A stretch of DNA of 64,000 nucleotides from an uncultured Acidimicrobiales bacterium (GTDB lineage Bacteria > Actinomycetota > Acidimicrobiia > Acidimicrobiales > SZUA-35): positions 62,001 to 126,000 of the forward strand of contig CALIFY010000005.1 in the NCBI GenBank assembly GCA_938021675.1. Direction: 5' to 3'. The stretch's first letter is position 1, and each line of letters opens with the position of its first letter. Both the position numbers and the translations under genes were made by a program. The notes under the pieces were generated by a model, which saw nothing but the letters and a program-made list of their open reading frames with translations, was not told the DNA's origin and did no database searches. Shown here in pieces: positions 53,849-64,000 of the stretch.

Positions 53849-54628
53849 CTAGCCGGACCAACCCATCTGTTTCGACACCGTTCGGGCTAACACCATCACC
53901 GCATCGGAGAATGCCACCCGATTCTCGTCCATTCGATCGGTTGGGCCGGCCAGACTCAACGCTGCCACGGCATCGCCGGTGCCATCGCGAATTGGTGCCG
54001 CCACCGAAACAACGCCGAGCATGCTTTCCTGCCGGTTCTCGGCGAACCCCCGTCGCCTCGTAACGAGCAGCTCCTCCCGCAGCTTCGTGATATCGGTAAT
54101 CGAGTGTTGGGTTGTAGCGTCGAGCGTCCAACCCTTCAATAGCTGGTCACGTTGTTGCCGGCCAACAAAGGCCATGATGGCTTTCCCCGAACTGGTCCGG
54201 TGGGCCGGAACCCGCCGTCCCAACGCGGCGAAAAAGCGCAAGGTCGTTGGACTGTCAAGGCGCTCGACATACACGACCTCACGACCGTCGAGTACCCCAA
54301 CCTGGACGGTCTGACCGGTGCGGGACCGCAGTTCGGTCATCGATACCAGCACCGCCTCGTGCAGTGACCGTTGCTTCGGCATGGCCGCAGCCATATCGAA
54401 GACGGAGAGACCGAGCCGGTACCGGCCTGAGTCGGCGTCCTGATCGAGCACACCCTCATCGGCCAGTGTGCTCAACAACCGGTGCACGGTCGACGTCGAC
54501 AACGACAGATGCTTGGAAAGATCGGCCACGCCCCAGGTGAGGTGTTGCGACGAGAACGACTTCAACACCCGAGCCGCGTTGGCCACCGAGGTCAGGCGAT
54601 TCTTCGACACCCCACCAACGTAAACCAA
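53849..54628 (-). CDS. IclR-family transcriptional regulator
   Basis: Regulator of up to 259 residues. The winged helix-turn-helix is ADLSKHLSLSTSTVHRLLSTLADEGVL, followed by the IclR effector domain (VQVGVLDGREVVYVERLDS, PAHRTSSGKAIMAF, RRRGFAENRQESMLGVVSVAAPI). The start is TTG 54628 or GTG 54610. It is divergent from the extradiol dioxygenase operon, with a 17-bp palindrome in the gap, so it most likely controls that operon in response to an aromatic effector. Confidence 0.92.
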   Translation of the reverse strand: MVYVGGVSKNRLTSVANAARVLKSFSSQHLTWGVADLSKHLSLSTSTVHRLLSTLADEGVLDQDADSGRYRLGLSVFDMAAAMPKQRSLHEAVLVSMTELRSRTGQTVQVGVLDGREVVYVERLDSPTTLRFFAALGRRVPAHRTSSGKAIMAFVGRQQRDQLLKGWTLDATTQHSITDITKLREELLVTRRRGFAENRQESMLGVVSVAAPIRDGTGDAVAALSLAGPTDRMDENRVAFSDAVMVLARTVSKQMGWSG

Positions 54629-54694: not shown

Positions 54695-55603
54695 ATGGGG
54701 ATCTTGCGGCTCAGTCACGTCGACATCACCGTCACTGACCTTGAGCTGGCGGCCGCCTACTACACCCAGGTGGTTGGCCTTGAAATCACAGAGCGGAAAG
54801 ACGACCGCGTGTTCTTCAAGTGCTGGGACGAACGAGACCACCACTGCCTCGCCGTCCGCCACGACACCAGGGTCGGCCTAGATCGTTTCGCATTCAAGGT
54901 TGAACATGCCGACGACCTCGACCACTTCGAGAGCCGCATCGAATCGGCAGGTTACCCGGTCGAGCGGGTAGCCGATGACCAGGAGGTCGGCCAAGGCGAG
55001 TCGATTCGCTTCGTTCTGCCGTCCGGCCAACAGATGGAACTCGTCGCCGACGTGCACAAGGTGGGCGGTAAAATGCCGCTCATCAATCCCCCGCCAATCC
55101 CTCAGGGACTCGTGGGAATCGCCCCACCAAGAATCGATCACATGCTCGTGCACGCCGAGGAGGTCCCGGTCGTCGCCGCGTTCTTCCAAGACGTCCTCGA
55201 CTTTCGCCTGACCGAGCAGCTACTCAATGGGCAAGGCCATCAAACGATCGCGTTTCTTGAGCGGTCGGCCAAGCCGCACGACATCGCCTTCGTGCAGGGC
55301 CCAAACGGAGCGTTACACCACTTCTCGTTCTGGCTAGACGATTGGGATCACATCCGGCGGGCCGCCGACATCCTCGCCTACAACGGGGTCACTATCGACG
55401 TGGGCCCCACTCGTCACGGCTTGACCCGCGGCAACACGATCTACTTTTTTGATCCAATGGGAACCCGAAACGAGGTGTTCACCGGCGGGTATCGCCCCGA
55501 TCCCGACTTCCCCACCATTACCTGGACCAACGAGCAGGAGGGCCGCGCTGTCTTCTACTACGAAGGCGTCCTCAACCAACGGTTCGCGACGGTACACACA
55601 TGA
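54695..55603 (+). CDS. extradiol ring-cleavage dioxygenase (catechol 2,3-dioxygenase-like), copy A
   Basis: Vicinal-oxygen-chelate dioxygenase of 302 residues with two VOC modules. The C-terminal module holds the Fe(II) site: His149 (RIDHMLVH), His208/209 (ALHHFSFW) and Glu260 (RNEVFTGGY), with His241 and Tyr250 in the positions of the second-shell residues of XylE-type enzymes. It should open a catechol ring next to the hydroxyls to give a yellow semialdehyde. First gene of the operon behind the IclR operator. Substrate range unknown. Confidence 0.92.
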   Translation: MGILRLSHVDITVTDLELAAAYYTQVVGLEITERKDDRVFFKCWDERDHHCLAVRHDTRVGLDRFAFKVEHADDLDHFESRIESAGYPVERVADDQEVGQGESIRFVLPSGQQMELVADVHKVGGKMPLINPPPIPQGLVGIAPPRIDHMLVHAEEVPVVAAFFQDVLDFRLTEQLLNGQGHQTIAFLERSAKPHDIAFVQGPNGALHHFSFWLDDWDHIRRAADILAYNGVTIDVGPTRHGLTRGNTIYFFDPMGTRNEVFTGGYRPDPDFPTITWTNEQEGRAVFYYEGVLNQRFATVHT

Positions 55604-56520
55604 GTTCTGAAGGAATTCTTCGTCTCTCGCATGCTGAGGTTCGAGTGCCCGATCTTCAGCTCGCTACGGCCTACTACGCCGAAGTCGTCGGTCTGGTGGT
55701 GACGTCGTCCAGTACCGATCGCACATACCTCAAGGGTTGGGACGAACATCAGCACCATTCGCTGATCCTGACCGAAGCTCCCACCTACGGCCTCAACAGT
55801 CTGGCCTTCAAAGTGGTGGAGCTGGCCGAACTCAACCGCCTTGCCGAGCGGGTCGAGGCTACGGGCATCAAGACCGAACGATTCGCCGAACGACAGCTGA
55901 ACCCGGCATCGGGAACCGTGGTTCGATTCACCGCACCGAGCGGGCACATCATCGATCTCGAACATGGGCAGGCCCAGGTCGGAAACGGCCTTGCCCTAAT
56001 CAACCCGCCTCCGGCACCCGACGGGCTGAAGGGCATGCGCCCACCGCGAATCGACCACATCTTCTTGCTGTGTGAGGACGTCGATGGCATCACCGACTTT
56101 TTCCGCCACGTGCTCGAATTTCGTTTGACCGAGCAGATCTTGGCCGACGACGGCCATCAGCTCACCACCTTCCTCGAACGCACCCACACCCCACACGACA
56201 TCGCGTTCCTCACCGGACCCGACGGTGGCTTCCACCACCTGGCGTACTGGGTCGACGAGTGGAACGACCTTCGTGTGGCCGCCGATACCTGCGCGTATCA
56301 CGGAGTCAGCATCGATGCCGGGCCGACCCGTCACGGGGCGACCAGAGGATGTGGTCTCTACTTCTTCGATCCCGCTGGGAATCGAAACGAGGTCTACACC
56401 GGCGGTTACTGGTTCGACCCTGACGATGAGCCAACCACCTGGACCGAATCCGAAATGGGTCGCGCCATCTTCACCTACAAGGGGCAAGTGGACCCAGGAT
56501 TCATGTCGGTGCACTCATGA
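55600..56520 (+). CDS. extradiol ring-cleavage dioxygenase (catechol 2,3-dioxygenase-like), copy B
   Basis: Second VOC extradiol dioxygenase, 306 residues, clearly a paralogue of the gene before it (same RLTEQ, PHDIAF, GPTRHG, YFFDP segments). Ligands are His153, His212/213 and Glu264, almost the numbering of XylE (153, 214, 265). Start overlaps copy A stop by 4 bp. Two tandem copies may form a hetero-oligomer, or they may act on different catechols (for example phosphorylated or substituted). Both appear intact. Confidence 0.92.
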   Translation: MSSEGILRLSHAEVRVPDLQLATAYYAEVVGLVVTSSSTDRTYLKGWDEHQHHSLILTEAPTYGLNSLAFKVVELAELNRLAERVEATGIKTERFAERQLNPASGTVVRFTAPSGHIIDLEHGQAQVGNGLALINPPPAPDGLKGMRPPRIDHIFLLCEDVDGITDFFRHVLEFRLTEQILADDGHQLTTFLERTHTPHDIAFLTGPDGGFHHLAYWVDEWNDLRVAADTCAYHGVSIDAGPTRHGATRGCGLYFFDPAGNRNEVYTGGYWFDPDDEPTTWTESEMGRAIFTYKGQVDPGFMSVHS

Positions 56521-57611
56521 ACGACCCGCCGGATACCAGCCAAGCTGCAGACACCGACCGTCACGGCGCGCCGCTCTACTTGGCGAAGTATCGAGAGAGT
56601 GTAAAACAGGGTCAGTCCAACGGCGACGCCTCCGCCGGCGACGAGCCTCTGTACCTACAGCGCTTCCGGGAGCAGCATCGTGCTGGAACCGATTCGGACG
56701 TACCGCTCTTCCAACGGGCCACGCTGGCAACACAACAGGCGCTCACCGAATCCAACCGAAACAAGGAGATCGCTCCCCCGCCGGGGATACCTCGCGGGTT
56801 GCGAAACGACGTCTACCTCATCCGACACGGCGAAACCCAGGGCTATTCAACCGATTCGGGTCTCACCCCTCAAGGGGTCTGGCAGGCTCACACATGGGGC
56901 CAGACGCTGGCCCGTCGAATTCAGAGCGGCGAGACCGTCGTGTTCCGCCACGCCGCCACGAACCGGGCCACGGAAACCGCCGAGCAGATCCATCGCGGGT
57001 TGCTCGATGGGCTAGCTCAGTACGAAAGGGACATCACGATCCATGAGCCGGAGGTTGCCGACGAATTCCGCAACTTCCAGTTCGTGTCACCCGATGGACT
57101 CAAGGACGTCACCGCAGCCTTCCGCGAGTACAGCGCGACCCTCGAAGGTTTCGAGCGCTCAGCGGCCAGAGACCGCCCGAAATGGGTTGTCGAGATGGAC
57201 CGTTTCTGGCGAACCCAGCAAGGAGGCGGCGACCCTATCCAGCATTGGCTCACCATTCCCATGATGCACTTTGAACCACCGGCGATGACGGTTCGACGGT
57301 TCTGGGCCGGCATCATCCGGCTCTCAGATGAGTTCCCTGGAGCCCGCCTGGCCATCGCGTCTCACTCCGGTTGCATCCGGGCCTTTGCGGTCAACGCGCT
57401 CGGCTACGATCCCGGCGAACCGTACAACGCCGAACACGTCCGCGTAAAGCTACTCAGCGATGACGAACACACGGTCAACGGGCGCGATGCGACCGTGGCC
57501 TACCGCAACCGCGTCGAATCGATAAAGGTCCCGGCAATCGACCAACTCCCAACATGGCAAGTCGACGACCAATGGTCCGGGTTCACCGACGAGGATGCAA
57601 GAGGTGTGTGA
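56517..57611 (+). CDS. histidine phosphatase (phosphoglycerate-mutase-like) with novel N-terminal repeat
   Basis: Protein of 364 residues. The phosphatase domain starts at about 100 with VYLIRHGETQG (catalytic His in RHG), keeps FRHAATNRATETA (Arg), and has the second catalytic His in IASHSGCIRAFAVNALGY. The first 95 residues contain a short motif repeated: PLYLAKYRE, PLYLQRFRE and a weaker PLFQRA. Within an operon that also encodes a phosphotransferase and an oxygenase, it could remove a phosphate placed on the aromatic substrate. It overlaps its neighbour upstream (ATGA). Role is inference; family is clear. Confidence 0.85.
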   Translation: MNDPPDTSQAADTDRHGAPLYLAKYRESVKQGQSNGDASAGDEPLYLQRFREQHRAGTDSDVPLFQRATLATQQALTESNRNKEIAPPPGIPRGLRNDVYLIRHGETQGYSTDSGLTPQGVWQAHTWGQTLARRIQSGETVVFRHAATNRATETAEQIHRGLLDGLAQYERDITIHEPEVADEFRNFQFVSPDGLKDVTAAFREYSATLEGFERSAARDRPKWVVEMDRFWRTQQGGGDPIQHWLTIPMMHFEPPAMTVRRFWAGIIRLSDEFPGARLAIASHSGCIRAFAVNALGYDPGEPYNAEHVRVKLLSDDEHTVNGRDATVAYRNRVESIKVPAIDQLPTWQVDDQWSGFTDEDARGV

Positions 57612-57687
57612 GTCGTGTCCGATCGTCGACTGGGAGCACGAACTTCCAACCGTCCGCTACTTCACCGCAACAAAGGTTGACGCTGAA

Positions 57688-58764
57688 ATGACCGAACACA
57701 TCGTCTGGTTCGATCGGTACGAACCAGCCCACAAGCCCTTCGTCGGCGGTAAGAACGCCAGCCTCGGCGAAATGATGATGGCCGAGCTTCCCGTTCCCCC
57801 AGGGTTCGCGGTGACGACCGTTGCCTACGACCAGATCTGGCAGGACGCTCAGCTGGTGACACAAGTCAACGATCTACTGCGGGCCATCGACCACGACGAC
57901 CACGCAGGTAACCGGGTCATCTCCGACCAAATTCGAACTCTCATCGAGGCGGCGCCGATCCCTCCCGAGGTAGCCGACGATGTACGCCAAGCGTACGCCG
58001 CGCTGTGCACGCATTGTGGCATCGACGATGTCCCCGTAGCGGTGCGCTCCTCGGCTACTGCTGAGGACATGCCCGACGCGTCATTCGCTGGCCAGCAGGA
58101 CACGTTCCTGTGGATCGTCGGCGCCGATGCCGTTCTGGAAAACCTGCGGAAGTGCTGGTCATCGATCTTTACCGACCGAGCCATCGCCTACCGCCACTCC
58201 ATGGGATACCTCCACCAATCGATCGCGATGAGCGTCGGCATCCAGAAGATGATCGACCCCATCTCGTCGGGCGTCGCCTTCACGCTCAACCCCACAAACG
58301 GCGACCGTTCCCAGGTGGCAATCGATGCGTCCTGGGGATTGGGGGAGGCCGTAGTCTCCGGCGAAGTCACACCGGACAACTTCTTAGTCGACAAAGTCTT
58401 GCGGGAAGTTATCGAACGCAAGATCAGCGACAAAGGTGTGGAGTACTGCCTCACCGACGACGGTGTTGTCGAGAAGCTCGAGGTGACCGGGGCTCGACGG
58501 AAAAGGCCGGCGGTTACCGACGACGATCTGACCGCGATCGCCATCCTCGCTCGCCGGGCGGAAAAACATTACGGCTGTCCACAAGATGTCGAGTGGGCTC
58601 TCGACAAACACCTTCCACCGGGTGAGAACGTTGTCATGCTGCAAAGCCGCCCTGAAACCGTGTGGTCGCAAAAGCCGAAGACGCCCATCACGACCGACGG
58701 ATACGACCCGATGAAGTCGATCGTCTCGACGCTCATGACACCGCTCAACAACAAGACCGACTAA
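57688..58764 (+). CDS. PEP-synthase-like ATP-binding subunit (phenylphosphate synthase / CreHI type)
   Basis: ATP-grasp subunit of 358 residues equal to the N-terminal part of PEP synthase: VGGKNASLGEM, VAVRSSATAEDMPDASFAGQQDTFL, RAIAYRHSMGYLHQSIAMSVGIQKMI, SSGVAFTLNP, SWGLGEAVVSGEVTPDNF and MLQSRPETVW at the end. It stops before the swivelling His domain, which is a separate gene next door. Such split two-chain forms are known for phenylphosphate synthase of Thauera and the p-cresol-phosphorylating CreHI of Corynebacterium. ATG 57688 starts at the family N-terminus; ATG 57595 would add 31 residues and overlap the phosphatase gene. Confidence 0.85.
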   Translation: MTEHIVWFDRYEPAHKPFVGGKNASLGEMMMAELPVPPGFAVTTVAYDQIWQDAQLVTQVNDLLRAIDHDDHAGNRVISDQIRTLIEAAPIPPEVADDVRQAYAALCTHCGIDDVPVAVRSSATAEDMPDASFAGQQDTFLWIVGADAVLENLRKCWSSIFTDRAIAYRHSMGYLHQSIAMSVGIQKMIDPISSGVAFTLNPTNGDRSQVAIDASWGLGEAVVSGEVTPDNFLVDKVLREVIERKISDKGVEYCLTDDGVVEKLEVTGARRKRPAVTDDDLTAIAILARRAEKHYGCPQDVEWALDKHLPPGENVVMLQSRPETVWSQKPKTPITTDGYDPMKSIVSTLMTPLNNKTD

Positions 58765-58836
58765 CGAACATCAAACCGAACAAAGAAACGAAGTAGGAAC
58801 CAATACCGGCGCAGACCGGCATCAGGGGGAATGACG

Positions 58837-60627
58837 ATGAACAACAGCTTTCCAAGTCCATTCGAAATCGAGGGCCCAGACGGAGTCGAAGGATGGGAGG
58901 AGCTCTACCCGTACTCGTCATCGTTTAGCGAATATCGCAAGGACTACGAGGACAACCGCTTCTGGTTTTGGGACTCGATGCACTGGGGGAAGGCCCTTAC
59001 CCCTTGGGACGCGACCTTCATGGAGGCCGCCCTCGCTGCGTTGAGCCAGATGAACAGCCGCCACTACCGAATCCCCCCAGCGGATGGCGTCGACTTCCGC
59101 ATCCTCTACGGCTACGCGTTCCTTTCCCCCGTCGGCGTCGACCCGTCACAGATCGAAGCTCGGGTTCCGCAGTTCATGGAGCGGGCCGGTCACTACTTCG
59201 GCAACTGGGATTCGCTCTACGACAACTGGCTCAACAAGGTGAAGACCACCATCGAAGAGATCGAATCGATCAACTTCGACCCGCTTCCGGAAATGGAAGA
59301 CCTCGAAGTCATCACCGGAGGCTCGGCCATCGGATCCGGTGCGACGCTGATGAGCGAATACAACCGTTTCAAAGACCTGATCATGCAAGCCTGGCAATTC
59401 CACTTCGAGTTTCTCAACCTCGGCTACGCCGCCTACCTCGACTTCTTCGGCTTCTGCAAGGAAGCCTTCCCATCGATCCCCGACCTCGGCATCGCCAAGA
59501 TGGTCGCCGGCGTTGAAGTCGACCTCTTCCGTCCAAATGAAGAGCTCAAAAAGTTGGCTCAGAAAGCTGTCGACCTCGGCGTCGCCCGCAACTTCGACGA
59601 TCCGGACAACGTCACACTCGACGGCGAAGGTGGTGCCCAATGGCAGGCAGCATGGGATGAGGCCAAGGACCCATGGTTCAACTTCACGTCGGGCAACGGC
59701 TTCTACCACTTCGACAAGATCTGGGTCGAGAACCCGGATATTCCGTACACCTTTATTAGGGACTACATCGCCCGCATCGAAGCCGGCGAAGATATCAGCC
59801 GTCCGATCGACGCAATCCGTGAAGAGCGCGACCGTGTGGTGAGCGAGTACCGAGACCTCCTCGGTTCGGATGAAGACCGTGAGGCCTTCGACGGCAAACT
59901 CGGTCTGGCCCGCGTGGTCTTCCCTTACGTCGAGAACCACAACTTCTACATCGAGCATTGGACCATGTCGGTGGTTTGGCGCAAACTCAAAGAGCTCGGC
60001 GCCACGCTGGAGAAGGATGGCCTTCTGGCCTCCGCCGACGATCTACTGTTCATCCGCCGTGATGAGGTAAACGAGGTCTTGTGGGACTACTACGCCAACT
60101 GGGCGGTCAACGCACCGACGGCCTCGGCAGCTCACTGGGGGCCGATCATCGATCGTCGTCGTGCCATCCACGCCAAACTCGATGGGTGGCAGGCACCGAA
60201 GGCTCTCGGTGCACCTCCCGAGGTCATCACCGAGCCGTTCACCATCATGCTTTGGGGTATCACCTCAGAGTCGGTGAACAACTGGCTGGGTTCGGACGGT
60301 GACGCCGAGAACGAACTCACCGGCATGGCGGCCTCCCCGGGAACCGTCGAGGGAGTCGCTCGGATAATCAATAGCCCTGAGGAGGTCAACGATCTCCAAC
60401 AAGACGAGATCCTCGTGGCCCCGATCACCGCTCCGAGCTGGGCACCGGTGTTCCCAAAAATCCAGGCCTGTGTCACCGACATCGGCGGCATGATGAGCCA
60501 CGCGGCCATTGTTTGTCGTGAATACGGTGTTCCAGCCGTCACCGGAACCGGCTTCGGTACCGACAAGATCAAGACCGGCGACCGAATCCGAGTCGACGGG
60601 TCGTCGGGCAAGGTCACGATCCTTTAG
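58837..60627 (+). CDS. PEP-synthase-like phospho-histidine/substrate subunit (phenylphosphate synthase / CreHI type)
   Basis: Subunit of 596 residues. The N-terminal 490 residues are a helical domain without generic motifs (FWFWDSMHWGKALTPWD, FHFEFLNLGYAAYLDFFGFC, YVENHNFYIEHW). The C-terminal 100 residues are the PEP-utilising swivel domain with GGMMSHAAIVCREYGVPAVTGTG, where His555 would carry the phosphoryl group from the ATP-grasp subunit to the acceptor. Length and order match the larger subunit of phenylphosphate synthase. ATG 58837 is better spaced from AGGGGGA than the ATG at 58831. No UbiD-type phenylphosphate carboxylase is visible. Confidence 0.85.
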   Translation: MNNSFPSPFEIEGPDGVEGWEELYPYSSSFSEYRKDYEDNRFWFWDSMHWGKALTPWDATFMEAALAALSQMNSRHYRIPPADGVDFRILYGYAFLSPVGVDPSQIEARVPQFMERAGHYFGNWDSLYDNWLNKVKTTIEEIESINFDPLPEMEDLEVITGGSAIGSGATLMSEYNRFKDLIMQAWQFHFEFLNLGYAAYLDFFGFCKEAFPSIPDLGIAKMVAGVEVDLFRPNEELKKLAQKAVDLGVARNFDDPDNVTLDGEGGAQWQAAWDEAKDPWFNFTSGNGFYHFDKIWVENPDIPYTFIRDYIARIEAGEDISRPIDAIREERDRVVSEYRDLLGSDEDREAFDGKLGLARVVFPYVENHNFYIEHWTMSVVWRKLKELGATLEKDGLLASADDLLFIRRDEVNEVLWDYYANWAVNAPTASAAHWGPIIDRRRAIHAKLDGWQAPKALGAPPEVITEPFTIMLWGITSESVNNWLGSDGDAENELTGMAASPGTVEGVARIINSPEEVNDLQQDEILVAPITAPSWAPVFPKIQACVTDIGGMMSHAAIVCREYGVPAVTGTGFGTDKIKTGDRIRVDGSSGKVTIL

Positions 60628-60695
60628 CACCATCGAGCGTCCACCAACTGCCGGACGCTCACATCCTTCTCCCCATCTCACATTAGGAGCATGTG

Positions 60696-61958
60696 ATGCT
60701 TACACAGGAACAGAACGACGCACTCACGCAGGTGGGCCCCGGAACGCCTATGGGCGCGGTGCTACGCAACTACTGGTACCCGGTGGCCTTTACCCGAGAA
60801 CTCGACGAGTTCCCGGTCAAGCGAACCCGCGTGCTCGGCGAAGACTTCGCGGTGTTCAAGACCGAAGACGGCGACTACGGCATCGTCGACGAGAAGTGTC
60901 CTCATCGTGGTGCATCTCTGGTGTACGGCATCGTCGACGGCAACGGGATTCGCTGCGGCTACCACGGTTGGAAGTTCGCTACCAACGGCGACTGTCTTGA
61001 GATTCTCGCCGAACCTGACTCGTCACCGAAGTTCCGCGCCGATTGCGGCGTGCGGTCGGGCGAAGCCCAAGAGCTTGGCGGCTTGGTGTGGGCCTACGTC
61101 GGCGATGGTCCGGCTCCCGAACTTCCTCGATACGAGGCCTACACGATGCACGGCCATCGCGATATGGGGCACGCGGTGCTTCCCTGCAACTGGCTGCAGA
61201 TCATGGAGAACGCGGTCGATCCGTACCACGTCGAAGCATTGCACGGGAACTACTTCGAGTTCATCGCCGCCCAGACCGGCATGGAGATGCCCGGTTCCTT
61301 CGGTGGCAACAAGCATGAGAAGGTGGCGTTCGATCCGTTCGAGCACGGCATCATCAAACGTCGCCTGCTCGTCGGTCAAGACGAGAACTCCGACGACTGG
61401 AAGATCGGCCATCCGCTCGTCTTTCCGTACAAGATGTGGGTCGGCGGCAACGGCGTCTACCAAATGCAGATTCGCGTGCCGGTCGACGACACCCACACCA
61501 ACGTCATCTTCTATACGGTGCACGCGCCTGAGGGGGCCAACCTTCCGAAGCAGGTTCACACGACCGATTACCCAATCGAGTGGATGAACGACGACGGCAC
61601 CTTCATCGTCGACTACATCGAGGGTCAGGACATCATGGCCTGGGTAACCCAGGGAGAGGTGGCCGACCGCACGAAAGAGAAGATAACCAAGAGCGACGTC
61701 GGCGTCGTCGCCTGCCGCCGAATGTTCCGGGAAGCGATGGAAGCGGTAGCCGGAGGAAAGGATCCGATCGCCGTGGTACGCGAGCCTCACGAGGTCATCA
61801 AGCTACCCCTGGAACGCTCGAAGTTCGGCCGTGGCGCCGAGTTCGCAAGCGATTGGATCGACAACGGGTCGATGCGTTACAGCCCGATCGCTCAAGAGAT
61901 GAAGCAGCTGCACATCGATGCCGCCAAGGCTCGGGAAAGCCTCACGGAAACACAATGA
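60696..61958 (+). CDS. Rieske non-haem iron aromatic oxygenase, alpha subunit
   Basis: Oxygenase of 420 residues. The Rieske [2Fe-2S] ligands are Cys68-x-His70 and Cys87-x2-His90 (CPHRGASLVYG, RCGYHGWKF); mononuclear iron ligands His178 and His183 with bridging Asp175 are in ENAVDPYHVEALHG. A third carboxylate is likely in EGQDIMAW. Architecture is like phthalate-type oxygenases, so it needs a separate reductase, which is not in the window. ATG 60696 follows AGGAG by six bases. It lies directly after the phosphotransferase genes and would hydroxylate the aromatic substrate before ring cleavage. Confidence 0.93.
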   Translation: MLTQEQNDALTQVGPGTPMGAVLRNYWYPVAFTRELDEFPVKRTRVLGEDFAVFKTEDGDYGIVDEKCPHRGASLVYGIVDGNGIRCGYHGWKFATNGDCLEILAEPDSSPKFRADCGVRSGEAQELGGLVWAYVGDGPAPELPRYEAYTMHGHRDMGHAVLPCNWLQIMENAVDPYHVEALHGNYFEFIAAQTGMEMPGSFGGNKHEKVAFDPFEHGIIKRRLLVGQDENSDDWKIGHPLVFPYKMWVGGNGVYQMQIRVPVDDTHTNVIFYTVHAPEGANLPKQVHTTDYPIEWMNDDGTFIVDYIEGQDIMAWVTQGEVADRTKEKITKSDVGVVACRRMFREAMEAVAGGKDPIAVVREPHEVIKLPLERSKFGRGAEFASDWIDNGSMRYSPIAQEMKQLHIDAAKARESLTETQ

Positions 61959-62734
61959 CGATCGACCACGGCTATTGGGCCGACTACCTTCTTTCCGCTG
62001 CCGACGAGCGCAAGGAGGTCCAGGCCATCACGAAGCAAGTCGACGAACTGTCGACCGATGATGCATACGCCATCCAAGCGGCGCTACTCGAAAAGCAGCT
62101 TGGCCGAGGTGACGCGCTGGCCGGAGCCAAGCTCGGCCTCACCTCCAGAGCAAAACAGGAGCAGATGGGTGTCGACGAGCCGGTCTACGGGTGGGTGCCG
62201 AAGAGTTCCATCATCACCGACGGCGTCGCTCCGCTCGGCGAGTTGATCCACCCCCGATGCGAGCCCGAACTGGTCTTCATCCTCGGGGAGGACCTGGCCG
62301 GCCCGGCCGTAACCGCCGACGATGTCCTCGATGCAACGAGCACGGTCGTGGGCGGCATCGAAGTGATCGACTCCCGGTATGAAGCGTTCAGCTTCACACT
62401 GACCGATGTGATCGCCGACAACACCTCCGCCGCCCGCGTCGTCATCGGCGATGACGGCACCGCGCCACGCGACACCGATCTCACCACCCTCGGGTGTGTG
62501 TTCGAGGTTGACGGCGAGATCACCGGAACCGCCACCGGGGCTGCGTTGCTCGGCGACCCCGCGGCATGTGTCGCGCTTCTCGCAAACCACCTAGGAAAGC
62601 ACGGTCAGAAACTCTCGGCCGGCTGGCTCGTCATGGCCGGCGCGGCGACCGATGCCCGACCGCTTGCCGAGGGCACGATGGCAACGGCGCGATACAGCCA
62701 CCTTGGCTCGGTTACCGTCACCGGGAAGGCCTGA
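61955..62734 (+). CDS. MhpD-family 2-keto-4-pentenoate hydratase/4-oxalocrotonate decarboxylase (copy 2)
   Basis: Protein of 259 residues: GAKLGLTSRAKQEQMGVDEPVYGWV, HPRCEPELVFIL with metal-ligand Glu, GGIEVIDSRYEAF, DNTSAARVVIG, GDPAACVALLANHLG. In meta-cleavage pathways DmpE-type hydratases and DmpH-type decarboxylases share this fold and form a complex; with copy 3 nearby, one probably does each job. The motif GDPAACVALLAN resembles decarboxylase-type sequences, but I cannot decide. ATG overlaps the Rieske stop (ATGA). Confidence 0.88.
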   Translation: MTIDHGYWADYLLSAADERKEVQAITKQVDELSTDDAYAIQAALLEKQLGRGDALAGAKLGLTSRAKQEQMGVDEPVYGWVPKSSIITDGVAPLGELIHPRCEPELVFILGEDLAGPAVTADDVLDATSTVVGGIEVIDSRYEAFSFTLTDVIADNTSAARVVIGDDGTAPRDTDLTTLGCVFEVDGEITGTATGAALLGDPAACVALLANHLGKHGQKLSAGWLVMAGAATDARPLAEGTMATARYSHLGSVTVTGKA

Positions 62735-62735
62735 C

Positions 62736-62966
62736 ATGCCGCTGGTACACGTACACATGGCCGAAGGGCGGGATCCGGCCGCAAAGAAGGCGCTCATGGA
62801 TGCCATCACCGATGCGATGCATCAACACGTCGGTGCGCCCCGTGAATCGGTTCGGGTATGGATCAACGAATTCCCGAATACGAACTTCATGGCCGGTGGA
62901 GAACTCCTGAAAGACAAACAAGAGCGATTGGCCCGCGAACGCTCCGAGGCGGAAGGCGACCGGTAG
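62736..62966 (+). CDS. 4-oxalocrotonate tautomerase
   Basis: Tautomerase of 76 residues (75 after Met removal). Every catalytic residue of 4-OT is at its classic number counted after Met removal: Pro1, Arg11, Arg39 and Phe50. It isomerises 2-hydroxymuconate to the 2-oxo-3-enoate form, the step before decarboxylation. The C-terminus has about 13 extra charged residues compared with the usual 62-residue enzyme. It lies between the two hydratase/decarboxylase genes, 1 bp after the first and sharing a base with the start of the second. Confidence 0.93.
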   Translation: MPLVHVHMAEGRDPAAKKALMDAITDAMHQHVGAPRESVRVWINEFPNTNFMAGGELLKDKQERLARERSEAEGDR

Positions 62967-63766
62967 TGGCGGATCAACAAAAAATCGAAGCGGCGGCGGC
63001 GCAACTACGTGCTGCGGCTTCATCGGGCCAAGCGTGTCCGCCGATCCGCGAGACCCTCGGCACCGAGACCGATCTCGATGTCGGCTATGCCGTCCAGGAG
63101 ATCAACACCAACCTGGCGATCGCCAACGGCCGTCGGGTCACCGGTCGCAAGATCGGAATCACCTCGAAGGCCGTCATGGAACAGGTCGGCGTCGACCAGC
63201 CCGATTTCGGGACGTTGTTTGTCGACATGGAGTACGGCGACGGCGTTGCAATCGAGGCCGGTCGACTCATGCAACCGCGTGCCGAGGGTGAGGTGGCGTT
63301 AGTTCTCGAACACGACCTCGACCACGGCGAGCACAGCTTTAACGACATCATCAAAGCCACCGCCTACGCGCTCCCGTCGATCGAGATCGTCGACAGCCGG
63401 ATCGTCGACTGGAACATCCGAATCGTCGACACCATCGGTGACAACGCCAGCTGCGGTCTCTACGTGCTCGGCGGTAAACCGGTGACCCTTCGAGACGTCG
63501 ACCTGCGCAAAATCCCGATGCGAATGGACATCGACGGCGAGACCGCCTCGACCGGCGAAGGTGCAGCTTGCCTGGGGCACCCCCTCAACGCCGCCCGATG
63601 GCTGGCAAACGTTATGTCGCAGCGAGGCACACCCCTTCGCTCCGGCGACCTCGTGATGACCGGCGCCCTCGGACCGATGAAACCGATAGCGGCGGGAAGT
63701 TCCGTCGTCTGCGACTTTGGCCCGCTTGGCACCGTCACAACCTACGTAGAGCAGGACGAATCATGA
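62966..63766 (+). CDS. MhpD-family 2-keto-4-pentenoate hydratase/4-oxalocrotonate decarboxylase (copy 3)
   Basis: Protein of 266 residues: GRKIGITSKAVMEQVGVDQPDFGTLF, QPRAEGEVALVL with metal-ligand Glu, SIEIVDSRI, DNASCGLYVLG, GHPLNAARWLANVM, GDLVMTGALGP. The sequence VTGRKIGITSKAVMEQVGVDQPDFG is typical of 2-oxopent-4-enoate hydratases. GTG 62966 shares a base with the tautomerase stop. It should turn 2-oxopent-4-enoate into 4-hydroxy-2-oxovalerate for the aldolase. Confidence 0.9.
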   Translation: MADQQKIEAAAAQLRAAASSGQACPPIRETLGTETDLDVGYAVQEINTNLAIANGRRVTGRKIGITSKAVMEQVGVDQPDFGTLFVDMEYGDGVAIEAGRLMQPRAEGEVALVLEHDLDHGEHSFNDIIKATAYALPSIEIVDSRIVDWNIRIVDTIGDNASCGLYVLGGKPVTLRDVDLRKIPMRMDIDGETASTGEGAACLGHPLNAARWLANVMSQRGTPLRSGDLVMTGALGPMKPIAAGSSVVCDFGPLGTVTTYVEQDES

Positions 63767-64000
63767 AGACCGCCATCGTCGGCTCGGGTAACATCGCCAC
63801 CGACTTGCTCCTCAAGTCGATGCAATCGTCGGACACCGTCGATGTCGTGGCGATGTGCGGAATCGACTCGAACTCCGACGGGCTCGCTCGGGCAAAAAAT
63901 CTCGGCATAGCCACCACTTCTGAAGGAATCGACGCCCTGGTGACTATGGCAGAGTTCGCCGACGTCAGGCTCGTGTTCGACGCCACCTCGGCCGGCGCCC
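63763..64000 (+). CDS. acetaldehyde dehydrogenase (acylating), 5' part only
   Basis: First 79 residues, cut by the right edge. MKTAIVGSGNIATDLLLK is the N-terminal NAD-binding motif of MhpF/DmpF, followed by VDVVAMCGIDSNSDGLARAKNLGIATTSEG and VRLVFDATSAGA, the spacing typical of this family. It converts acetaldehyde from the aldolase to acetyl-CoA. ATG overlaps the hydratase stop (ATGA). The catalytic Cys and the partner aldolase would lie beyond the window. Confidence 0.9.
   Translation, partial: MKTAIVGSGNIATDLLLKSMQSSDTVDVVAMCGIDSNSDGLARAKNLGIATTSEGIDALVTMAEFADVRLVFDATSAGA

Follow-up and report, generated by a model that had tools for sequence, protein, structure and literature searches.

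The general view is that in aerobic bacteria phenol hydroxylases act on phenols directly. Several described pathways start from an aryl phosphate made by a two-component kinase. Such a kinase opens the anaerobic phenol route of Thauera, Aromatoleum and Azoarcus, and another opens the CreHI 4-cresol pathway of Corynebacterium glutamicum, to which clusters of Rhodococcus, alphaproteobacteria and Bacteroidota are alike. In C. glutamicum the phenol is reportedly phosphorylated, oxidised in air at its methyl group and dephosphorylated. The HpeHI/AcvAB hydroxyphenylethanone pathway also combines a two-component kinase with a phosphatase and with a phosphorylated intermediate that the next enzyme requires. 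The locus described here lies in a 64,000-nucleotide stretch, hereafter the window, from an uncultured Acidimicrobiales bacterium (assembly GCA_938021675.1, contig CALIFY010000005.1, positions 62,001 to 126,000 of the forward strand), inside contig C5 of a 4.45 Mb genome that is 95% complete. One operon of the window joins a split kinase to a Rieske oxygenase, a histidine phosphatase and a catechol meta-cleavage pathway. Judged from its genes, the operon probably serves to phosphorylate phenol or a 4-alkylphenol, to hydroxylate the aryl phosphate with the Rieske enzyme, to dephosphorylate the product to a catechol and to cleave this in the meta position.

An operon kept together across genomes

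Eleven genes on the + strand, with overlaps or short gaps between them, form one operon behind a divergent IclR gene. They encode, in order, the catechol 2,3-dioxygenases C23O_A and C23O_B, a histidine phosphatase, the ATP-grasp and phospho-His subunits of the kinase, a Rieske alpha subunit, a decarboxylase, a tautomerase, a hydratase, an acetaldehyde dehydrogenase and an aldolase. Gene content, intact catalytic motifs, co-inheritance and the grouping of the kinase are properties of the sequences themselves. An earlier reading made from the DNA letters without database searches (the sequence-only reading) had placed the kinase, the phosphatase, the Rieske oxygenase, two extradiol dioxygenases and the lower meta-pathway genes in one operon, and Pfam and NCBIfam recover all of them. 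Its start for the ATP-grasp gene, at 57688, is probably internal; GTG 57604, overlapping the phosphatase gene, is the likelier start because the in-frame upstream extension is conserved in many relatives.

The association of kinase and Rieske genes recurs elsewhere. Among the best 80 of 325 stretches with kinase relatives from named records, the nearest loci belong to uncultured Acidimicrobiales; a Rieske gene adjoins the kinase in 35 of the 80, one locus is cut off and 44 are Cre-type, with a cytochrome P450 (P450) gene nearby in 43 of the 44 and an HD protein gene in 43 of the 44 (two plasmid loci excluded). Searches of whole genomes scored only the top few candidates in each. In the class, 198 genomes yielded 14 kinases that pass the cut-off, 11 of them with an adjacent Rieske gene, the window's included; two of the others (L134, L136) lie beside a phenylphosphate carboxylase beta-like gene and one lies beside neither. 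Across 396 genomes of the phylum, the kinase was found at E values up to 1e-100 in 23 genomes and at 28 places, of which 11 have an adjacent Rieske gene, 6 are Hpe-type and 1 is cut short by the end of its contig behind the kinase, in a genome with a Rieske fragment on another contig. Searched from the other side, a Rieske protein of at least 54% identity is present in 12 of the 396 phylum genomes, and kinase and phosphatase accompany it in all 12. Three more genomes have a Rieske protein at 41–48% identity and no kinase at the E 1e-100 threshold. The phosphatase occurs in 13 of the 396; the thirteenth genome (G486) has both dioxygenases, the phosphatase and the ATP-grasp gene in a row; its large-subunit gene is disrupted, or the assembly is faulty there, and the search for a close Rieske in this genome gave none. 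The kinase is thus the reverse of consistently absent from the syntenic clusters of relatives, an outcome that the sequence-only reading had considered damaging to its proposal, and the gene set that it suggested looking for in other genomes recurs in many.

In total, 55 fetched loci contain kinase and Rieske genes, and 40 of them also contain C23O_A, C23O_B, the phosphatase and the ATP-grasp gene, although at one of the 40 (L036) the dioxygenase-phosphatase-ATP-grasp genes are on the other strand, approximately 8 kb away. Too little upstream DNA is available at 13 of the 55. At the remaining two, from Kineosporia, the dioxygenases and the phosphatase are not nearby; both Kineosporia genomes keep C23O_A, C23O_B and the phosphatase together, apart from the adjacent kinase and Rieske genes, and in one of them this unit is on a contig equal in length to the kinase's, probably the same one, about 14 kb off. 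Pairwise divergence of the six core genes correlates with r of 0.74 to 0.91 (37 loci). Comparison with three relatives gave a ratio of nonsynonymous to synonymous substitution rates (dN/dS) of 0.03 to 0.13 in 19 of 24 cases, the other five being saturated. Since the genes stay together in many genomes and the dN/dS values are this low, the gene set is beyond chance. Across the two genome samples (class and phylum) it occurs in nine groups of family level; the samples may share species, though no two compared Rieske proteins end identically. The genomes share ancestry, and the counts are not independent events. Cultured strains with such loci are Nocardioides agariphilus KCTC 19276 and the two Kineosporia strains. 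One Rieske-type locus (L027) comes from a bin labelled Acidobacteriota, which is either a transfer or a binning error. A further locus (L022) is labelled 'Candidatus Aldehydirespirator catecholifindens', a name suggesting that others have noticed catechol use; no open-licence paper naming it was found.

Kinase, Rieske oxygenase and phosphatase

The dikinase is divided between two chains, an HpeI/CreI/PpsB-like ATP-grasp subunit (57604–58764; PF01326, PPDK_N, 1e-110) and an HpeH/CreH/PpsA-like large subunit that carries the phospho-His (swivel) and substrate parts (58831–60627; PF00391; NF006150, 843 bits against a cut-off of 650). Pfam finds only PF01326 and PF00391 in the two subunits, and the C-terminal domain that binds phosphoenolpyruvate (PEP) or pyruvate was found in neither. 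The swivel motif of the large subunit is TDIGGMMSH, with Met at the position of the regulatory Thr of PEP synthase and Ser before the His. According to Dexter et al. (2025; PMC12167813), phenolic dikinases have the motif T/SxxGGxxxH with Met replacing the regulatory Thr, Ser precedes the His in CreH and PpsA, and the activity of HpeH is abolished by a His to Gln change. The window kinase matches this motif and lacks the regulatory Thr.

A midpoint-rooted tree was built from 74 of the 104 large-subunit rows, the P450-type rows being thinned and L035, L052 and L122 left out. All 45 Rieske-linked rows fall in one group together with row L009, a 3.7 kb contig that ends before a Rieske gene could show. 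The P450-linked group adjoins it (18 rows, support of 100 in the Shimodaira–Hasegawa-like approximate likelihood ratio test, SH-aLRT); beyond lie UbiD- and Hpe-linked rows and then haloarchaeal rows on a long branch. Five kinase positions separate Rieske-linked from Cre-type kinases. At position 59, Trp occurs in the Rieske group and in the two haloarchaeal rows shown, and Phe in the Cre, Ppc and Hpe rows; this position was given no weight because only two lineages share the residue. Taken together, domain content, motif and grouping predict a phenol kinase of the split type. The N-terminal extension of the ATP-grasp subunit (57604–57688) opens with M/V-C-x-x-C-P, a paired-cysteine tail seen in many Rieske-type relatives and missing from the Cre-type rows printed and from some Rieske-type loci (L034, L036, L127 to L132).

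The Rieske alpha subunit (60693–61958; PF00355, 1.8e-19) is phthalate-dioxygenase-like. Residues C69, H71, C88, H91, D176, H179, H184 and D313 are invariant in 25 of 25 aligned sequences; they include the CxH..CxxH cluster and the 2-His-1-Asp iron site of a Rieske alpha subunit. Its nearest solved relatives by sequence are phthalate dioxygenase (9.6e-48), a putative phthalate 4,5-dioxygenase (1.4e-45) and isophthalate dioxygenase (1.6e-38), at identities of about 30% or less, and dicamba O-demethylase matches at 3e-16. Pfam assigns the catalytic part to LigXa_C (7.3e-17) and weakly to VanA_C. A structural model made from the 25 sequences, with some weak stretches, has a mean predicted local distance difference test (pLDDT) score of 80 and a predicted template modelling (pTM) score of 0.85. 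Among the families in its match list, the phthalate group ranks above carbazole, dicamba and other matches: phthalate dioxygenase 7v25 aligns over 337 residues with Z 31.4 and a root-mean-square deviation of 3.4, followed by isophthalate dioxygenase (Z 29.8), NdmA (24.6), dicamba monooxygenase (24.1), carbazole dioxygenase (23.8) and guaiacol O-demethylase 7qwt (23.1). Aryl dianions are thus the substrates of the best relatives of the protein, and a phosphate ester is likewise a dianion. The parallel is suggestive only, because relatives with no kinase beside them have most of the same conserved basic residues.

Rieske relatives of 41–47% identity occur in Caballeronia and Peribacillus. No such kinase was found in the stretches fetched around them and no full-length one on those plasmids, the chromosomes not having been searched. 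The Peribacillus plasmid carries the Rieske relative with a Gfo/Idh oxidoreductase, a class II aldolase, a ferredoxin and a dioxygenase annotated for catechol metabolism; the Caballeronia relatives also lie near a Gfo/Idh oxidoreductase, with a ferredoxin-type reductase in the one scanned. This oxidoreductase is possibly a dihydrodiol dehydrogenase. The window operon has no Gfo/Idh oxidoreductase gene and no recognised dihydrodiol dehydrogenase gene, and the lack of the latter fits either monohydroxylation or loss of phosphate during rearomatisation.

The histidine phosphatase (branch 1; 56517–57611; PF00300, 5.8e-13) retains RHGE and His283 in 18 of 18 aligned sequences. Its model has a mean pLDDT of 73; the core is closest to PhoE phosphatase (Z 15.3), and other phosphatases score lower. 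The model resembles many phosphatases and is uninformative about the substrate. Extradiol cleavage requires two free hydroxyls, so the simplest role for the phosphatase would be to act just before the dioxygenase. The Kineosporia arrangement, in which phosphatase and dioxygenases stay together apart from the kinase, fits such a role. The poorly ordered N-terminal tail (56517–56800), modelled with low confidence, contains two similar motifs, APLYLAKYRE and PLYLQRFRE, each modelled as a short helix; P19, Y21, P44, Y46, F50 and R51 are invariant in all 18 sequences, and the motifs may be a docking peptide.

Ring cleavage, flanking genes and a haloarchaeal parallel

The tandem paralogues C23O_A (54695–55603) and C23O_B (55600–56520) score 361.8 and 330.1 bits against the TIGR03211 cut-off of 320.2, and both keep the His-His-Glu metal site. 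That both exceed the catechol 2,3-dioxygenase cut-off of NCBIfam makes catechol, or a compound close to it, the probable product of the upper pathway. Downstream of the Rieske gene are a DmpH-like 4-oxalocrotonate (2-oxo-3-hexenedioate) decarboxylase (61955–62734; TIGR03218, 9.3e-74, under the equivalog cut-off), a 4-oxalocrotonate tautomerase (62736–62966; NF002571, 63 bits against 55), a DmpE-like 2-oxopent-4-enoate hydratase (62963–63766; NF008461, 3.1e-95, under its cut-off), an acetaldehyde dehydrogenase (63763–64683; Pfam AcetDehyd-dimer, 2e-59) and a DmpG-like aldolase (64680–65699; DmpG_comm, 2.2e-32). The last two genes extend beyond the window end at 64000, the aldolase lying outside it, and were read in window numbering from the genome contig. 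With the dioxygenases, these genes make up a catechol meta-cleavage set, apart from a semialdehyde dehydrogenase. By analogy to the known pathway, the tautomerase and decarboxylase would imply the dehydrogenase branch and an aldehyde as ring-cleavage product, which fits an unsubstituted or 4-substituted catechol.

The IclR-type regulator (53849–54628, - strand; Pfam IclR_C, 1.2e-40, and HTH_IclR) occupies the same place in many relatives. Beyond it, between 51880 and 53797, are genes for HAD-type proteins and a DmpH-like protein; members of this HAD family turn up in 15 of the fetched loci, and many loci have DmpH-like genes.

Ten plasmid records contain a relative covering at least 80% of the kinase large subunit. 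Four of them are haloarchaeal (Natribaculum luteum, Natribaculum longum, Natrinema and Haladaptatus; L120, L122, L123 and L124), and all four have a two-subunit Rieske dioxygenase, an aldehyde dehydrogenase and a metallophosphoesterase near the kinase. The haloarchaeal and window Rieske proteins are 28% identical over 193 residues. As the haloarchaeal kinases also form a long separate branch, their pairing with a Rieske enzyme looks independent.

The proposed route, its rivals and described pathways

In the proposed route, the split dikinase would transfer phosphate from ATP through a phospho-histidine onto the phenol oxygen. The Rieske enzyme, served by a reductase coded elsewhere, would take the aryl phosphate dianion as its true substrate and add an ortho hydroxyl group. 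The histidine phosphatase would then strip the phosphate to give catechol or a 4-alkylcatechol, the catechol 2,3-dioxygenases would open the ring, and tautomerase, decarboxylase, hydratase, aldolase and acetaldehyde dehydrogenase would complete the meta pathway. The substrate, the presence of the phosphate during oxygenation, the regiochemistry and the order of the steps are what we infer from these genes. As far as sequence goes, the phosphorylation, oxidation, dephosphorylation and cleavage suggested by the sequence-only reading are supported: kinase genes are present in the clusters of relatives, and the kinase resembles Cre-type proteins rather than a true pyruvate/PEP enzyme.

Several observations weigh against this route. 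No enzyme of the clade was found to have been assayed, and much of the group originates from metagenome bins. At 10 of the 28 phylum kinase places no partner was recognised by the queries used. Support is only 84 both for the branch of the Rieske group and for the branch joining it to the P450 group, and because the root is also a midpoint root, the exact branching order of the kinase groups is not firm. A phosphate-specific signature was sought in the Rieske protein and not found, the conserved basic residues being largely common to relatives without a neighbouring kinase; its K-[RH]-R and DDWxIGHP-like stretches also occur, slightly altered, in the Caballeronia and Peribacillus relatives. 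The two arginines reported to bind phthalate in structure 7fjl have no Arg counterpart in the Rieske alignment. In another genome of the phylum (G414, locus L209, 8012–14151), the gene for a 46% identical Rieske protein has a distant extradiol dioxygenase gene and an IclR gene as neighbours, and no kinase was found in the fetched stretch; by its gene content, this locus shows that enzymes of the wider Rieske group function without phosphorylation as well. The window operon has no gene resembling a Rieske reductase or ferredoxin and none resembling hydroxymuconic-semialdehyde dehydrogenase. The best candidate for the latter in the genome, on contig C37, reaches 494 bits where the cut-off is 693, and 13 of 14 control genomes also match the family. 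On the supporting side, a dehydrogenase family is present in 6 of the 36 Rieske-type loci compared; the one member scanned (L005) has hydroxymuconic-semialdehyde dehydrogenase as its best match, under the cut-off and level with HpaE. Finally, a diiron monooxygenase pair on contig C58, not identified as a phenol hydroxylase, means that phenols may be oxidised in another way in this genome; in favour of the route, HpaB had no match in the genome, other flavin phenol hydroxylases not having been searched. The diiron pair (L140, 8532–15809) is accompanied by an alcohol dehydrogenase gene and a chaperonin (Cpn60) gene, an arrangement resembling a propane monooxygenase operon.

The same genes permit other readings. 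Were the Rieske enzyme an O-demethylase, guaiacol or a 4-alkylguaiacol would be phosphorylated, its methoxy group removed with release of formaldehyde and the catechol freed by the phosphatase. The LigXa_C and VanA_C matches, both to O-demethylase families, and the structural match to guaiacol O-demethylase 7qwt (Z 23.1) point this way, as does the acceptance of methoxylated phenols by the acetovanillone kinase HpeHI, reported in PMC12167813. This reading is nevertheless unlikely, as the protein is clearly more similar to phthalate and isophthalate dioxygenases (Z 31.4 and 29.8; E 1e-47 versus 3e-16 for dicamba O-demethylase) and no formaldehyde-handling gene was recognised in the operon. Another possibility, rather unlikely, is that the Rieske enzyme 1,2-dioxygenates the phosphate-bearing carbon to an unstable product that sheds phosphate and becomes catechol, leaving the phosphatase only dead-end esters to clear. 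The products of aniline dioxygenases lose nitrogen likewise, the fold list also includes carbazole dioxygenases, whose attack is adjacent to a heteroatom, and the operon has no recognised dihydrodiol dehydrogenase. However, all 12 sampled genomes that encode a close Rieske also have the phosphatase, whose gene directly follows those of the dioxygenases; this suggests an obligatory step. With its likely role immediately before the dioxygenase, hydroxylation and then dephosphorylation are more plausible than a spontaneous release of phosphate.

A separation of tasks, in which kinase and Rieske enzyme serve different substrates that converge on catechol, for example an aromatic acid for the Rieske enzyme and another phenol for the kinase, would agree with the aromatic acids used by the closest solved relatives of the Rieske protein, with the 41–48% relatives that lack a neighbouring kinase, one of which adjoins a distant extradiol dioxygenase, and with two dioxygenase paralogues that could serve two catechols. 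Such a separation is quite improbable: kinase and Rieske genes lie side by side even in genomes whose other cluster genes are elsewhere, all 12 sampled genomes that encode a close Rieske also encode the kinase, and a kinase without an oxygenase would give no catechol. Least credible by far is an ordinary PEP synthase that recycles meta-pathway pyruvate to PEP. Pyruvate is indeed an end product of the pathway and the subunits match parts of PEP synthase models, but this candidate was rejected on the missing PEP/pyruvate-binding domain, the swivel motif without regulatory Thr and the grouping of the kinase with those of aromatic clusters.

If the proposed route is true, ring hydroxylation by a Rieske enzyme would join carboxylation and P450-catalysed side-chain oxidation as a third fate of phosphorylated phenols, and the known substrates of Rieske enzymes would be widened. 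It would also assign a function to the gene set of the nine family-level groups, and the loci in cultured strains make the proposal testable. More broadly, and with a chance somewhat short of even, aryl phosphates may be the true substrates of a class of Rieske enzymes. The phosphate would be an anionic handle that turns an unreactive neutral phenol into a dianion bindable by a phthalate-dioxygenase-like Rieske enzyme for ring hydroxylation, comparable to the preparation of aniline by glutamylation. Such a strategy would have two or more origins, one in Actinomycetota with a one-subunit Rieske enzyme and one in haloarchaea with a distantly related two-subunit one. The proposal bears on the question, raised by Dexter et al. 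(PMC12167813), why such pathways begin with phosphorylation.

No published pathway with this gene set was found among the papers listed from the open-licence PMC literature, judged by titles and abstract openings, in line with the sequence-only reading, which knew of none. The word 'Rieske' is absent from PMC13101465, PMC9618137 and PMC12167813, all on related kinases; PMC7438803 shares matching words and describes markers only. The genes found next to the kinases agree with the contrast that the sequence-only reading drew with the P450 of Cre clusters and the carboxylase of anaerobic clusters. Cre-type clusters, whose dikinase belongs to the neighbouring tree group, comprise genes for a P450, ferredoxin, reductase, HD-domain protein, short-chain dehydrogenase/reductase and aldehyde dehydrogenase, and the same genes surround the kinase on a Rhodococcus plasmid. 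The window operon has no P450 or HD protein, for which reason a Cre-type pathway was rejected; in their place are the Rieske oxygenase, the histidine phosphatase and the catechol 2,3-dioxygenases, which points to attack on the ring. In the anaerobic phenol route, phenylphosphate carboxylase follows the kinase, as on an Azoarcus plasmid, whereas the oxygenases of the window operon need oxygen. The lack of UbiD noted in the sequence-only reading extends to the whole genome, with no PF01977 match (9 of 14 control genomes matched), and anaerobic carboxylation of phenylphosphate was rejected on this ground. The Hpe/Acv pathway differs in the biotin carboxylase that follows the kinase and in its NagD/HAD-like phosphatase; a Rhizobium plasmid kinase has a biotin carboxylase and a HAD hydrolase as neighbours, and the window operon has no gene for the biotin-dependent carboxylase HpeCBA. 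The phthalate and isophthalate dioxygenases of Comamonas testosteroni KF1 are the nearest solved relatives of the window Rieske protein by sequence and by model; in contrast to them, the window enzyme has no recognised dihydrodiol dehydrogenase in its operon and an aryl phosphate as its predicted substrate. The dmp/xyl meta pathway shares with the window operon the dioxygenase, tautomerase, decarboxylase, hydratase, aldolase and acetaldehyde dehydrogenase, and the two differ in the semialdehyde dehydrogenase, which the window operon lacks, and in the upper pathway, which is a phenol hydroxylase or toluate dioxygenase in dmp/xyl and a kinase with a Rieske oxygenase in the window operon.

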